Virus record (IMG/VR): IMGVR_UViG_3300044986_000212
Coordinates: 1 to 36,943 of that record
DNA from: a virus
DNA length: 36,943 nucleotides
Strand: one strand, 5' to 3'
This document shows, piece by piece, positions 156-36,943 of this stretch (the first letter of the stretch is position 1; every line of letters begins with the position of its first letter). A program made the translations under genes and the position numbers. The notes below the pieces were generated by a model, which saw only the letters and a list, made by a program, of their open reading frames with translations, did no database searches and was not told where the DNA came from.

Positions 156-1331
156 ATGAACACCCCTTCCCACCGCGTAACGGACAACGGTAAGACCGTG
201 ACCATTCACGGGCTGGAAGTGTTTTGCGCCTACGACCCTGCGCTGGACGGCGAATCGGACCCCGAACTGACGAAGTTCGATAACGAGCGCGTGCAGGACA
301 TCGTGGAAAGCACCCGGCGGTACATGGAGCGCGGGTCGCTTCCCCGGTTGGTGGTCATGCACGAAAAGGACGGGAACGAACCCAAGTCCAGCGTGGGCCG
401 CTTCACCAACATCGGGTACGAGGAGCGCGACGGGGTGGGCTTCATCGTGGGCGACTGCGAGGTAGAGAAGCCCGTATTCGATAAGTTGCTGGCGACCAAT
501 GCTTTCCCGCGCCGTAGCGCGGAGATTTGGTCGGAGCAGAATCACCTGTCGGAAGTGGCGTTGCTGGGGCGTGAAACCCCCCGCCGTCCCCTTCCCGACA
601 CGCACTTCACCCGCAAGGGTGAACTGGTCCGGTTCGCACGTTCGCTGCGCTTCGACATGGGGACGGTCGGAGGCGGGCTATCCACTTACGTTCCCGGTAC
701 GAAGGACACCAACATGGCTGACGATGACATCCGGAAGGAAGTCGCCGCGCTGAAGTGTGACATGGACGAGATGAAGTCCATGATGAAGAAGCACTTTGGT
801 TCGGACGAGGAGGAGAAGGAGGAGATGGCGGCGGAAGATATGCTCACGGAGCAGTTCGCGGAGGAATCCGGCGAAGGCGACGGCGTGCATATCGACATCG
901 ACTCCCACGGTGGCGAGGAGGAGGAGGAGGAGATGGGTATGTATGCCCGTCCCGGTTCCGCCGACACCTTCGCGCTGCGCCGCGAAAACGCCAAGATGAA
1001 GCGCGAACTGGACTCGCTCAAGGCGGAAATCCGCCGGGAGAAGTTTGGCCGCGAACTGGACATCATGGAGAGCGAGGGATATCGCATCCCCGCCGCCCAG
1101 CGTCCCCGGCTTGTTGCCGAACTTCAGGCGAGCAACGACCCGGCGGGAACGCTGGAGGGTTGGCGGGAACTGTTCACCCGCGATCCCATGAACGTGCGTA
1201 TCGACATGAGCCGCGCCGCCCTGCCCAGCAGCACGGACATCAACAAGAACGAAATCTCCAGCATGGTCCGCGAGTTCGCTGGCCGTCCTGAAGATTTCGC
1301 AAAGGCAATCAACAGCCGCATCAAGCGGTAA
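156..1331 (+). CDS. Mu gpI-like prohead protease/scaffold fusion
   Basis: This 391-residue protein probably acts inside the procapsid as maturation protease and scaffold. Residues 1-165 look like Mu gpI-type and other phage capsid proteases: a conserved His (VMHEKDG, H69), then FPRRSAEIW with S121 and LSEVALLGRE about ten residues later. That H/S pair is my inferred catalytic set. Residues 185-300 are highly acidic (DEEEKEEM and a run of Glu near 915-935) and then charged and helical, as expected of a scaffold. Residues 171-180 read VGGGLSTYVP, identical to residues 6-15 of the capsid protein encoded at 1771. It is the first gene of the capsid cluster and has no Shine-Dalgarno; the promoter places the transcript start at the ATG. 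Its neighbours are the cement and capsid proteins, the usual order in Mu-like head modules. The protease assignment is by motif and context. Confidence 0.75.
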   Translation: MNTPSHRVTDNGKTVTIHGLEVFCAYDPALDGESDPELTKFDNERVQDIVESTRRYMERGSLPRLVVMHEKDGNEPKSSVGRFTNIGYEERDGVGFIVGDCEVEKPVFDKLLATNAFPRRSAEIWSEQNHLSEVALLGRETPRRPLPDTHFTRKGELVRFARSLRFDMGTVGGGLSTYVPGTKDTNMADDDIRKEVAALKCDMDEMKSMMKKHFGSDEEEKEEMAAEDMLTEQFAEESGEGDGVHIDIDSHGGEEEEEEMGMYARPGSADTFALRRENAKMKRELDSLKAEIRREKFGRELDIMESEGYRIPAAQRPRLVAELQASNDPAGTLEGWRELFTRDPMNVRIDMSRAALPSSTDINKNEISSMVREFAGRPEDFAKAINSRIKR

Positions 1332-1349
1332 ACAGGAAAGGAACTACCA

Positions 1350-1742
1350 ATGTCTGACATGGGATTCACCCCGAACTTCATCGCAAGCGGCGATATCAAC
1401 CCGTTCCGCTTCGTGGAGATCAACACTTCTACGGCGTTCACGGGCCAGCAGGCCAATGCTGCTTCGGACAACGTGCTTGGTGTCACGGACGGCAGCGTGA
1501 AGCGTTTTGATTTGACCGTCCACGCTGCTGCTGGCGACCCGATCACCCTCCAGCCGTCGAACACGGTGCAGGTTGAATCGGGCGCGGCAATCAGCACCAT
1601 CGGCACGCTTCTGACTTCGGATTCGTCCGGTCGGGCGATCGCTGGTGTGTCTACGAACGTGTGCTACTACATGGCACTTGAAACTGCTGGCGGCGCGGGT
1701 GAAATCATCCGTGCGTTCCGCTTCGGCACTCGCGTTGTCTAA
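1350..1742 (+). CDS. Capsid decoration (cement) protein
   Basis: The 130-residue product resembles the small phage cement proteins that coat the capsid surface. It is rich in beta-forming and small residues, with the pattern VLGVTDGSVKRFDLTV, then AAGDPITLQPS, then VESGAAISTIGTLLTSDSSG, typical of the DUF2190-like capsid cement fold. It starts with ATG 1350 behind an AGGAAAGGA ribosome-binding site. It sits between the protease/scaffold and the major capsid gene, the standard place for a decoration protein. An unrelated head-stabilising protein of similar size is the alternative. Confidence 0.65.
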   Translation: MSDMGFTPNFIASGDINPFRFVEINTSTAFTGQQANAASDNVLGVTDGSVKRFDLTVHAAAGDPITLQPSNTVQVESGAAISTIGTLLTSDSSGRAIAGVSTNVCYYMALETAGGAGEIIRAFRFGTRVV

Positions 1743-1770
1743 AGCCATTACCTACAAGGAGGACTAAACA

Positions 1771-2808
1771 ATGGCATTCTCTGTTGTCGGTGGTGGACTT
1801 TCGACGTACGTCCCGTCCACCAATGATCTTGCGACGGGTGCGCTTCAGGTGGAGTTCACCCGAAGCGTCAATTCGTTCGCTCTCACCCGGTACGCGCAGT
1901 TGGTTCCCGTCACGAAGATGACGGGGTACTATCTGCGGCAGGACGTTCCGGACAACGTTCGCCTGACGAGCGACCGCGAGTTTGCTTGGCCGCTGGGCAA
2001 TGACCGCCCCACGGGTAAGCAGAACGCGTTTGACTTCGTGCAGTACGCCACGCAGCGTTTCGCGTTCCCCTTCTACATCCCGCAGGAGACTGCGACGCAG
2101 GCCGCGTGGGATGTCGTTGCGCAGCACGCTCGCAGCAAGGCGCAGTTGGCGATGACCGCCCGTACGAACCGTGCGGCGGCCATCCTGACCGATACGGGCA
2201 ACTGGGGCAGCAACTTCGTTGCGAACCCCACGGCTTCCCCGATTTCGGCTGCGTCGTACTGGAACGCCACCACAACCACGAACGCAGCCATTCAGACCTC
2301 CATTCAGGCGGTCATGCGGCAGGTGAGCCTGTCAAGCGGCGGCGCGATTGCCCCCAATCAACTCATCATGGTCATTTCCCCGACCGTGGCGAACGTGATT
2401 TCGCAGGCTCCGGAAGTTCGTGAGTACGTCAAGAACTACCCCGCCGCCCTGTCGTTCCTTCAGGGTTCGGATACGTTCTCGCGCTGGGGCATCCCCCCGA
2501 CCCTGTTCGGGCTGGGCGATGTCGTGGTCGATGACTCCGTGAAGGTGACGAGCAAGAAGGGTGCAACCCTTTCGACTTCGTACATCTACGGCGATTCGGC
2601 TGTCTTTGTGTCGCGTCCGGGTGGACTGGTCGGCGTTGAAGGCGCATCGTCCTTCAGCACGTGCCAAATCTTCGCGTACGAGGACATGACCGTGGAGCAG
2701 TTCAACGATCCGATGAACCGTCGCATTGAGGGTCGCGTGATCGACAACTCGGTGGCTGCGGTGGTGGCCCCGGTTGGTGGCTATCTGATTCAGGACGTTA
2801 TCTCCTGA
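1771..2808 (+). CDS. Major capsid protein
   Basis: The 345-residue product is placed as the major capsid protein from its size, its position after scaffold/protease and cement genes, and a very strong ribosome-binding site (AAGGAGGA, 1755-1762) before ATG 1771. The sequence is compatible with the HK97-type fold: a long polar N-terminal arm, a helix-rich middle (residues 110-140) and a C-terminal domain with conserved Pro/Gly turns; I cannot prove the fold. Residues 6-15 (VGGGLSTYVP) are identical to a segment of the upstream protease/scaffold. An N-terminal arm of this kind is often clamped by scaffold or removed by the prohead protease. A stable UUCG hairpin follows the gene. Confidence 0.8.
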   Translation: MAFSVVGGGLSTYVPSTNDLATGALQVEFTRSVNSFALTRYAQLVPVTKMTGYYLRQDVPDNVRLTSDREFAWPLGNDRPTGKQNAFDFVQYATQRFAFPFYIPQETATQAAWDVVAQHARSKAQLAMTARTNRAAAILTDTGNWGSNFVANPTASPISAASYWNATTTTNAAIQTSIQAVMRQVSLSSGGAIAPNQLIMVISPTVANVISQAPEVREYVKNYPAALSFLQGSDTFSRWGIPPTLFGLGDVVVDDSVKVTSKKGATLSTSYIYGDSAVFVSRPGGLVGVEGASSFSTCQIFAYEDMTVEQFNDPMNRRIEGRVIDNSVAAVVAPVGGYLIQDVIS

Positions 2809-29338: not shown

Positions 29339-31612
29339 ATGGCCGACATCGACCTGACCCCCACGGAGGAGATGGCATCGAATGCCGCCCGTGGGCTGGA
29401 ACTGCGCGAGAAGCACGGACGCGGCGGAACCGCCGTGGGCGTTGCCCGCGCACGCGACATCAAGAACCGGAAGAACCTGTCCCCCGACACCGTTCGGCGG
29501 ATGCACTCGTTCTTCTCGCGTCACGCTGGGAATGAAGCCGGGGGTGAAGATGATGCGGGGTACATCTCGTTCCTGTTGTGGGGCGGGGCCGCAGGACGAT
29601 CATGGGCAAAGCGCAAGAGCGCACAACTTGACAAGGACGAAAACGCTATGAGCGACACGCGCAAGGAAATCATGGAACGGCTTGGCAGCGCGGGCAAGGT
29701 GAAGTCGGGCCGCGCGGAACAGGTAATGCGCGATGGCACCGTACATCTTGATTTCCGCGCCGCGAAGGAATGGCTGGCGGGCGTGACGGATTCTGCCCTG
29801 CGGTACATCATCAACGATGCACAGCAGGCGGCGAAGGCGATGCCGGATGGGAACAAGTGGAACTACTACCACGATCTTTCGCTGACAGCGCAAGACGAAC
29901 TCCAGCGGCGCAAGCGCAAGTCTGCCCGCCCCGGCGTGAAGGCGAAGATGGCGCGGTGGACGCTAGACGCATCCGAAGGATGGGGCGACCTGTCCAAGCA
30001 ATGGACGGCAACCATCAACGGAACGCAATGGGCTATCGTTGTTGAGGGCGCGACTGGCAATGGTTCGCTCATGCGAGTTCAACCGGGGCGCGCTCCGCAA
30101 ACCATCAAGCGTGGTTCCGTCGAACAATTGAAGCGATACGCGGAAACGCTCAAGTCCTCCCGCCCCGGCGCGAAGGCGAAGATGGCGATGATTCCGATTG
30201 GAACGATGCGCCGCCTGAAGAAGAACTACGACGAATACTTGGCGTATCTGCATCGCAATGATCCGAAGCGCAAGCCCATGTCCTTTGATGAGTTTGTGGA
30301 TGAACACAAGGAGTCTGTGAAAAACAGCCCGATGTTTGACTCCAATCAGTTCTCCCGCCCCGGCGCGAAGGCGAAGTTTGGCTTGGAAGTTGGCGAAGCC
30401 TTTGAGTTTGAGGGCAAGGTGTATGTGGTAAACAGCAACGCCGACAAAATCTCATTCCTGCTTTCCTCGCTTCGGTCCAACAGCGAAAAGGCGATGATGC
30501 TTGCCGCTTATATGCACAAGGGATGGATTTCCTACGAAGGCAAGCGCAAGTCCTCCCGCCCCGGCGTGAAGGCGAAGATGGGGAAGTGGGAATCGACGCT
30601 GACCAAGAAGCACGGCAAGACGATTGAGGAATACACGGCTCGTCTGAAGGGCGGGATGTTCAAGATCGAAGTGGGCGAGGGTTCAGGTGGGCCATACGCC
30701 ATTCTGTATCGGTGGGATGACCTGCGCGGCTTGGAGCGAATTGCATCCGGAAACTTGCAGTCGCTTATGCGGCAGGCCGAAAGCATGGGAGCAAAGGAAG
30801 CGCGTGGCGTGGCGGCTGTTGAGCGGCTTGCGAACTACGCCCGCCCCGGCGCGAAGGCGAAGATGGCTAGGATTGCAGGAAACTCGTTGGTTCTTGATTC
30901 CGGTGATGTGTTCAAGATTACAGAATGGGATGATCTATCGAATGCGGCTCCCGCAATACGGGATGTGATTTCCAAAGCGGGAGTGGTGACAGATAAAAAG
31001 GGCAGGATGTGGTACTTGCGAATTAGAAAAAACGGGACATTCGTTCTGCAAGTTCCAACAGCGGGAGGACAAACAATTCAGGGCAGAATGGAATCCTCCC
31101 GCCCCGGCGCGAAGGCGAAGTTTGCGGAGGATGCCCGCGAAGTCGCACAGGAAATCCTGCGGCAACTCGGCGGCGGTCGCTTCATGGCGATGGTCGGCGG
31201 CAAGAACGCATTTCACGGCACGTTCGGCGGCAAGGCTGGACTGCAATTCGACATCGGCAAGGGTGCGGACGGTGGTGTAAATCGCGTCATCGTGAAGTTG
31301 GACCGTGGCACCGACACCTACGACATGGAGTTTTGGCGCATCGGCAATCGCGGCATGAACGTCAAGAAGGTGTCGGAGGCTTCGGGCGTGTATGCCGATG
31401 ACCTCCAGCGCATCTTTACGAGCCGCACGAAGTTCTATACGTCGCTCTCCCGCCCCGGCGCGAAGGCTCACAACGCCATCCGCGAAGGCGAGAAGGTGAG
31501 CGCGTCCGACGATGCCGTGTCGCGTAAGATCCGCAAGTTGATGGACGAAGGCAAGCCGCAGAAGCAGGCTGTTGCCATCGCGCTTGACCTTGAACGTAGG
31601 GGCGAACTGTGA
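29339..31612 (+). CDS. Modular protein with seven (S/A)RPG(A/V)KAK(M/F) motifs
   Basis: The 757-residue product lies between terminase and portal. Residues 1-95 form a conserved-looking phage domain (NAARGLELREKHGRGGTA; GYISFLLWGGAAGRSWAKRK). Residues 105-195 form a helical domain. Then seven near-identical motifs at about residues 196, 274, 339, 406, 501, 587 and 704 separate unlike modules of 65-117 residues. Modules after motifs 1 and 4 share an outline and may be related; module 6 (ILRQLGGGRFMAMVGGKNAF, DTYDMEFW, GVYADDLQRIF) looks like a domain that also occurs as a separate protein in other phages. The C terminus is IRKLMDEGKPQKQAVAIAL. The motif DNA is nearly the same each time. No enzymatic motif is seen. 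It could be a capsid-internal or ejected protein, a polyprotein or a cassette that gains modules. Confidence 0.75.
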   Translation: MADIDLTPTEEMASNAARGLELREKHGRGGTAVGVARARDIKNRKNLSPDTVRRMHSFFSRHAGNEAGGEDDAGYISFLLWGGAAGRSWAKRKSAQLDKDENAMSDTRKEIMERLGSAGKVKSGRAEQVMRDGTVHLDFRAAKEWLAGVTDSALRYIINDAQQAAKAMPDGNKWNYYHDLSLTAQDELQRRKRKSARPGVKAKMARWTLDASEGWGDLSKQWTATINGTQWAIVVEGATGNGSLMRVQPGRAPQTIKRGSVEQLKRYAETLKSSRPGAKAKMAMIPIGTMRRLKKNYDEYLAYLHRNDPKRKPMSFDEFVDEHKESVKNSPMFDSNQFSRPGAKAKFGLEVGEAFEFEGKVYVVNSNADKISFLLSSLRSNSEKAMMLAAYMHKGWISYEGKRKSSRPGVKAKMGKWESTLTKKHGKTIEEYTARLKGGMFKIEVGEGSGGPYAILYRWDDLRGLERIASGNLQSLMRQAESMGAKEARGVAAVERLANYARPGAKAKMARIAGNSLVLDSGDVFKITEWDDLSNAAPAIRDVISKAGVVTDKKGRMWYLRIRKNGTFVLQVPTAGGQTIQGRMESSRPGAKAKFAEDAREVAQEILRQLGGGRFMAMVGGKNAFHGTFGGKAGLQFDIGKGADGGVNRVIVKLDRGTDTYDMEFWRIGNRGMNVKKVSEASGVYADDLQRIFTSRTKFYTSLSRPGAKAHNAIREGEKVSASDDAVSRKIRKLMDEGKPQKQAVAIALDLERRGEL
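29924..31474 (+). repeat. Seven dispersed 27-bp coding repeats
   Basis: The motif copies are at 29924-29950, 30158-30184, 30353-30379, 30554-30580, 30839-30865, 31097-31123 and 31448-31474. The first six share the core CCCCGGCGYGAAGGCGAAG; the seventh changes after GAAGGC. Spacing varies from 195 to 351 bases, always in frame. Codon choice is fixed although synonymous codons are available, so recent copying or recombination is likely. Confidence 0.85.
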
Positions 31613-36565: not shown

Positions 36566-36852
36566 CCGACTACATGCTCCGCACCAACACCGAGGCGCAG
36601 ATGGACGATGCGCTTGAAGCCGCAGGACTACTTGAGGACGGCCCGATGGGAACCTATCCCGTTGCGGGCTGCTATGTGGACCGCATCGGGCCGATTCCCG
36701 CGACCTACGACATCGACGGGCAGCAGATCAAGGCAGGCGACCCGCGCTTCCATGCCAACATCCGGGTGACTTTTGAACTGACGGAGGAGCAGGTGTCGTG
36801 GCTTCCGACGTTCACGCCGGAACCAAGCATTCCATATCGCGTATTTGCCTAA
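36562..36852 (+). CDS. Small protein downstream of the fiber-like gene
   Basis: The 96-residue product (MTDYMLRTNTEAQMDDALEAAG start; IKAGDPRFHANIRVTFELTEEQ centre) resembles small phage proteins often encoded near fibers. The function is unknown; a fiber chaperone is one possibility. ATG 36562 overlaps the previous stop (ATGA). The last 38 codons are repeated at the left edge of the window. Confidence 0.7.
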   Translation: MTDYMLRTNTEAQMDDALEAAGLLEDGPMGTYPVAGCYVDRIGPIPATYDIDGQQIKAGDPRFHANIRVTFELTEEQVSWLPTFTPEPSIPYRVFA

Positions 36853-36856
36853 CCCA

Positions 36857-36885
36857 TTGACTTGCAATAACTCCTGCGAGATACT
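36857..36885 (+). promoter_or_regulatory. Second copy of the head-operon promoter
   Basis: TTGACT, 17 bases, GATACT, identical to 121-149. ATG 36892 lies six bases after the -10 hexamer. Confidence 0.6.
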
Positions 36886-36891
36886 GCGCTA

Positions 36892-36943
36892 ATGAACACC
36901 CCTTCCCACCGCGTAACGGACAACGGTAAGACCGTGACCATTC
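36892..36943 (+). CDS. 5' end of the protease/scaffold gene (partial)
   Basis: The first 17 codons (MNTPSHRVTDNGKTVTI) repeat positions 156-207 and run off the right edge. This is the same gene as 156-1331. Confidence 0.85.
   Translation, partial: MNTPSHRVTDNGKTVTI

Follow-up and report, generated by a model that had tools for sequence, protein, structure and literature searches.

The ten-residue motif VGGGLSTYVP was found twice in the head genes of a family of uncultured phages, once inside a protein that joins a protease-like domain to a scaffold and once near the N-terminus of the major capsid protein. Both copies were present in every one of the 278 related viral loci that hold both regions. 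The two copies have most likely been kept alike by the need of a single partner, probably the phage's own head protease, to recognise each of them. The window analysed in our study is the whole stretch of 36,943 nucleotides of the IMG/VR record IMGVR_UViG_3300044986_000212 (positions 1 to 36,943), and the following features of it were concerned.

156..1331, plus strand: protease-scaffold fusion gene, 391 amino acids, with an N-terminal protease-like domain (about residues 1–151), a linker and a C-terminal helical scaffold part
666..695, plus strand: motif copy 1, VGGGLSTYVP, residues 171–180 of the fusion, within its predicted disordered linker
687..689, plus strand: codon of Tyr178, at the invariant aromatic position of the fusion copy; putative P1 residue
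702..706, plus strand: internal ribosome-binding site AAGGA, found as AAGGA in 44 of 56 distinct sequences and as AAGG in 6 more
714..1331, plus strand: nested in-frame scaffold gene, 205 amino acids, starting MADDDIRKEV at a conserved ATG after the internal ribosome-binding site; its predicted product is devoid of the motif
1350..1742, plus strand: small head protein, decoration- or cement-like, between the scaffold and capsid genes (weak Phage_cement_2 match; PHROG 673 head protein)
1771..2808, plus strand: major capsid protein, 345 amino acids, HK97 fold (PHROG 1005 major head protein; Foldseek 3bjq, E 5e-14)
1786..1815, plus strand: motif copy 2, VGGGLSTYVP, capsid residues 6–15, in the N-terminal arm
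1807..1809, plus strand: codon of capsid Tyr13, the putative P1 residue of this copy

Conservation of the two motif copies

The motif was found exactly at the residues of the fusion and of the capsid protein where the sequence-only reading had placed it, and the partly agreeing xTxD that it had noticed after both copies was present as GTKD in the fusion and STND in the capsid. The DNA of the two copies differed, as had been stated, since eight of the ten codons were unlike and 22 of the 30 bases were identical. The longest identical run between the fusion and the capsid protein was these 10 residues; in 300 shuffles of both proteins the longest run was usually 4 and at most 6 residues, on which ground a chance origin of the common 10-mer was rejected. 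A looser pattern searched in six frames matched only the two known places in the window, and no third copy was found. Further pattern matches in the relatives were unrelated glycine-rich frames and not third copies in the head module.

The 278 informative loci contained 55 distinct pairs, and no relative with the motif in only one of the two proteins was found among them, so that this refuting condition of the sequence-only reading did not arise. The consensus in both proteins was [VA]GGG[LQN][SN][TSAP][YF][VI]P, with invariant GGG and Pro. The letters allowed at each column were nearly equal in the two proteins; I and M were found rarely at the L/Q/N column, in the scaffold copy. The aromatic position was aromatic in all the distinct scaffold copies, and it was Tyr or Phe in all the distinct capsid copies except for one misregistered row. 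The shared conserved part ended at the Pro, beyond which the scaffold copy was variable whereas the capsid was conserved.

The relatives from IMG/VR formed two branches. The capsids of the first branch were about 69–100% identical to that of the window and those of the second, deeper branch about 57–65%. The first branch contained S in both proteins at the S/N column and the second branch N in both; the distinct pairs were 40 S/S and 14 N/N and never mixed, with one row misregistered. Compared across relatives, the two segments thus differed together between the branches at the S/N column, whereas the other variable columns changed independently. The match between the proteins points to a coupling of the two copies; as the S/N difference is one evolutionary event, this coupling is suggestive and not proven. 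A third branch with Thr or Ala at this position was sought by a pattern search of viral contigs, which gave five unrelated stretches only.

The synonymous codons varied in both copies, giving 63 distinct codon-level pairs. The rate of same-codon matching within a locus was 0.42 in these pairs, against a mean of 0.40 and a maximum of 0.45 in shuffled pairs. Since codon matching within loci was not above that between loci, the likeness appears to be held by selection at the protein level and not by gene conversion, in agreement with the earlier proposal, and recent copying was rejected on the same ground. The common motif might otherwise be ascribed to chance, to a recent duplication or gene conversion, or to a start at Met168 that would give both proteins the same N-terminus. 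Met168 does stand before the motif in the window. However, the second branch contains CTC, CTG or CTT in place of this Met codon, and upstream of it no ribosome-binding site is found, so Met168 was also rejected as a scaffold start; together with the shuffles and the codon comparison, this leaves next to no probability for any of these origins, which are refuted for practical purposes.

Exchange of genes within the head block was also found. Four loci of the first branch (L012, L013, L017, and L071) contained proteases about 99% identical to that of the window, with values above 99% in L012, L013 and L071, and capsids only 83–87% identical, and the motif was undisturbed by this exchange of protease and capsid genes. 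No tblastn match was found in the INPHARED isolate phages for either protein of the window or for the capsid of the second branch; for the fusion reading frame of the second branch, all of the matches listed were to its extra N-terminal domain. Two pattern-based scans of GTDB genomes gave no prophage relatives.

The fusion protein, its predicted nested scaffold gene and the surrounding head genes

The N-terminal domain of the fusion looks like a prohead protease, judging from its gene position, from the invariant residues His69 and Ser121 and from a motif-level likeness to HK97 gp4 and P2 gpO. His69 and Ser121 were invariant in both branches, Ser121 being followed by a conserved LSEVALLGRETPRRPLPD stretch, and they were compared by eye with HK97 gp4 and P2 gpO; in a prohead protease of these types, a catalytic His and Ser about 50–60 residues apart would be expected. 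No Pfam match was found for the domain, its model had no significant match in the PDB, and the profile comparison (hhalign) of the fusion with Mu I, HK97 gp4 and P2 gpO, each entered as a single sequence, was not significant. In the AlphaFold2 model the fusion was folded at residues 1–137, disordered at 138–190 and helical at 191–214 and 269–342. Most residues of the 138–190 linker had a pLDDT below 50, and the C-terminal half was helical and acidic, as in a scaffold.

In the second branch, a domain (MEIDLKPTDEM...KHGRGGTEVGVARARDIKNRKNLSPDTVRRM) was fused in frame to the N-terminus of the protease (L220, 3047–4546). The same MEIDLKPTDEM domain was present in the window at 29339–29650, where it begins a 757-residue protein instead, and matches to it were found in 90 records of isolate phages, under varied annotations.

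The internal ribosome-binding site and the in-frame start were conserved in both branches and lay between the protease and scaffold parts; motif copy 1 ended 6 bases upstream of AAGGA. In the second branch the site was AAGGAGG. A strong SD was found upstream of 116 of the 173 Met codons near the motif, against 257 of the 2114 elsewhere in these open frames. This conserved AAGGA with the in-frame ATG at 714, just past the scaffold copy, is new here. From their conservation, a 205-residue scaffold without the motif is probably also produced, as Mu Z is inside I. In the long form, the motif thus stands where protease and scaffold join.

The window starts inside the head-gene block, with the fusion gene upstream of the capsid gene and one small head gene between them; elsewhere it contained a Mu-like portal, F and gp36 proteins and a terminase. 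A fusion with a nested scaffold upstream of the capsid gene is the layout of Mu I/Z and lambda C/Nu3. The likeness to Mu I/Z-T covers the gene order, the nested in-frame scaffold start (predicted here) and the Mu-like portal, F and gp36, whereas no motif common to I and T was found in Mu (longest run 4) and neither the protease nor the capsid of the window gave a profile match to its Mu counterpart. In herpesviruses, too, a protease, a linker and a scaffold follow one another, the scaffold is nested, and a release site lies at the join. Their second site lies in the scaffold tail and not in the capsid protein, whereas here the proposed second site is in the capsid protein.

The predicted structure of the capsid protein matched many phage capsids, best 3bjq with a TM of about 0.6, and no solved relatives were found by sequence. 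The arm (residues 1–50) had a pLDDT below 50. Both copies of the motif were unstructured in the models, so that these assign it no place in the active site or on the capsid.

Other repeats were also found in the window. Positions 1–200 are repeated at about 36740–36943 with one or more base differences, the second repeat again containing the start of the protease gene, as would fit a genome that is circular or terminally redundant. The 757-residue protein (29339–31612) contained seven copies of a linker [AS]RPG[AV]KA(K/H), about 65–116 residues apart, between unlike modules. The number of linker copies varied among its relatives, and the protein resembles a polyprotein or a modular internal head protein. 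Many scaffolds of the family contained an ASRPGRAD stretch before the C-terminal coiled coil, and SRPG could be another processing site. The capsid contained a near-invariant SRPGG at residues 281–285 (2611–2625), which resembles the SRPG linker of the 757-residue protein and is probably structural.

Proposed cleavage at the motif and the other explanations

The proposal that the motif is the site cut by the prohead protease in both proteins fits its location at the capsid N-terminus and at the protease-scaffold join, by analogy with phages in which such cuts are known. VGGGLSTYVP may, with a likelihood a little short of even, be a shared recognition element shown by the fusion and the capsid to the same partner, probably the prohead protease, and serve as a release site in the one and a trimming site in the other. 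The fusion copy, which lies a little upstream of the nested start, would release the scaffold from the protease, and the capsid copy would be the place of N-terminal trimming. The cut would most likely fall after the invariant aromatic residue (Tyr178 and Tyr13), as in P2 and 80alpha; this would leave VPGTKDTN-MADDD as the beginning of the scaffold and Val14 as the first residue of the capsid. The protease activity of the domain, its cutting at the motif and the bond that is cut are all three inferred. As the nested start lies just past the motif, only the long form would need the site. A cut at the invariant Tyr/Phe would thus explain the location, the motif-free nested scaffold, the invariant aromatic position and the shared letters.

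In 80alpha, the capsid and scaffold have an extended N-terminal motif in common, which is cut after Phe by the host protease Prp (LKLNLQHF'A and LKFNLQFF'A; PMC5744158, PMC9405229). The phages of our study likewise contain one extended motif conserved in both the capsid and the scaffold, close to the capsid N-terminus, with an aromatic residue at the cut that is known in 80alpha and proposed here. However, 80alpha lacks its own protease and has its scaffold copy at the N-terminus, whereas in these phages the copy lies inside the fusion, where the protease-like domain and the scaffold flank it. In P2, the fused protease (domain 1–141) is reported to cut at the capsid N-terminus (31/32) and at the protease/scaffold join (PMC7552001). 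The likeness to P2 lies in the fusion of a protease to the scaffold beside the capsid gene and in the cuts of gpO and gpN at the join and the capsid N-terminus, both after Phe. In our alignment of 13 diverse P2-like phages, an invariant Phe was found just before both cuts. The P2-like sites shared only this Phe and usually a small residue, with longest shared runs of 3–5 residues; between the scaffold join region and residues 1–60 of the capsid the longest run was 2–4. P2 thus differs in that its sites are without an extended motif, and no sequence relation between the fusion proteins was detected.

Ten conserved residues with an invariant GGG are more than a P2-like protease needs, which counts against the processing reading. 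Why GGG and Pro should be required over a stretch of ten residues does not follow from a cut by itself, but would from a second role in binding such as that in 80alpha. The failed profile link of the protease domain to Mu I, HK97 gp4 and P2 gpO also counts against cleavage. The head module is Mu-like, the start site of the Mu major head protein is recorded as confirmed by amino acid sequencing, and the capsid of the Mu-like phage JBD30 retains a hook of the N-terminal arm in the mature head (PMC11445458), which together argue against trimming of the capsid.

The sites of cleavage could also lie elsewhere, for instance behind Phe151 in the fusion and Phe29 in the capsid (F-x-R, cf. F-C-R of P2 gpO) or at SRPG-like sites, in which case the motif would have another role. 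Phe151/Arg153 and Phe29/Thr30/Arg31 were invariant, and this Phe-x-Arg pair could provide P2-type sites instead, a further point against cleavage at the motif. Many of the family's scaffolds contain the SRPG-like stretch, and the protein at 29339–31612, as described, contains it seven times. However, F-x-R is a very short likeness, no SRPG-like stretch is found at the capsid N-terminus, and neither of them accounts for the common 10-mer, so cuts away from the motif seem quite improbable.

A signal for a common host factor, a chaperone or a host protease, in place of the phage protease or capsid has likewise little probability. In 80alpha, the motif of the capsid and scaffold is shared with the host ribosomal protein L27 and all three are cut by Prp, and the authors suggested a common chaperone as well. 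Against this, the protein with the fusion copy seems to include a protease of the phage itself, and this copy is internal and not N-terminal. VGGGLSTYVP does not match the sequence recognised by host Prp, LKxNLQ(F/H)F'A.

The sequence-only reading had offered a second possibility, that the scaffold mimics the capsid arm and occupies its binding surface until maturation. As a general mimic this is weakened, because the start at 714 probably gives a short scaffold without the motif; docking by the fusion only survives. The capsid arm would then bind a groove on the neighbouring subunit in the procapsid, and the arm copy in the fusion would bind the protease, and not the bulk of the scaffold, to free arm sites, which we consider possible but somewhat unlikely. 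The motif is long, with invariant Gly and Pro, and in this it resembles a strand for binding rather than a minimal site for a protease. The first 14 residues of the P2 capsid bind inside the procapsid under the P-domain of the neighbour (PMC7552001), the N-terminal sequence of the 80alpha scaffold is essential though its cut is dispensable (PMC5744158), and the arms of JBD30 make contacts between capsomers (PMC11445458). On the other hand, docking does not predict a position exactly at the protease/scaffold join, and in P2, the closest case, no motif like the first 14 capsid residues was found in gpO when its authors sought one (PMC7552001), which leaves docking without a precedent there. The arm copy of the fusion could also act as a loading tag, filling vacant docking sites and thereby placing a few protease copies beside the capsid tails while the nested scaffold does the bulk of the templating, but this seems unlikely. 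If true, it would be capsid-arm mimicry inside a protease.

Meaning for the family

We know of no description of such mimicry inside a protease. The probable nested scaffold gene revealed here would escape annotation. How a prohead protease finds and cuts its own linker and the capsid is known for few phages. In this family, the approximately 280 loci mark one element common to both proteins, with a matched difference between the branches, so that a shared recognition by the prohead protease may be tested by point mutations.
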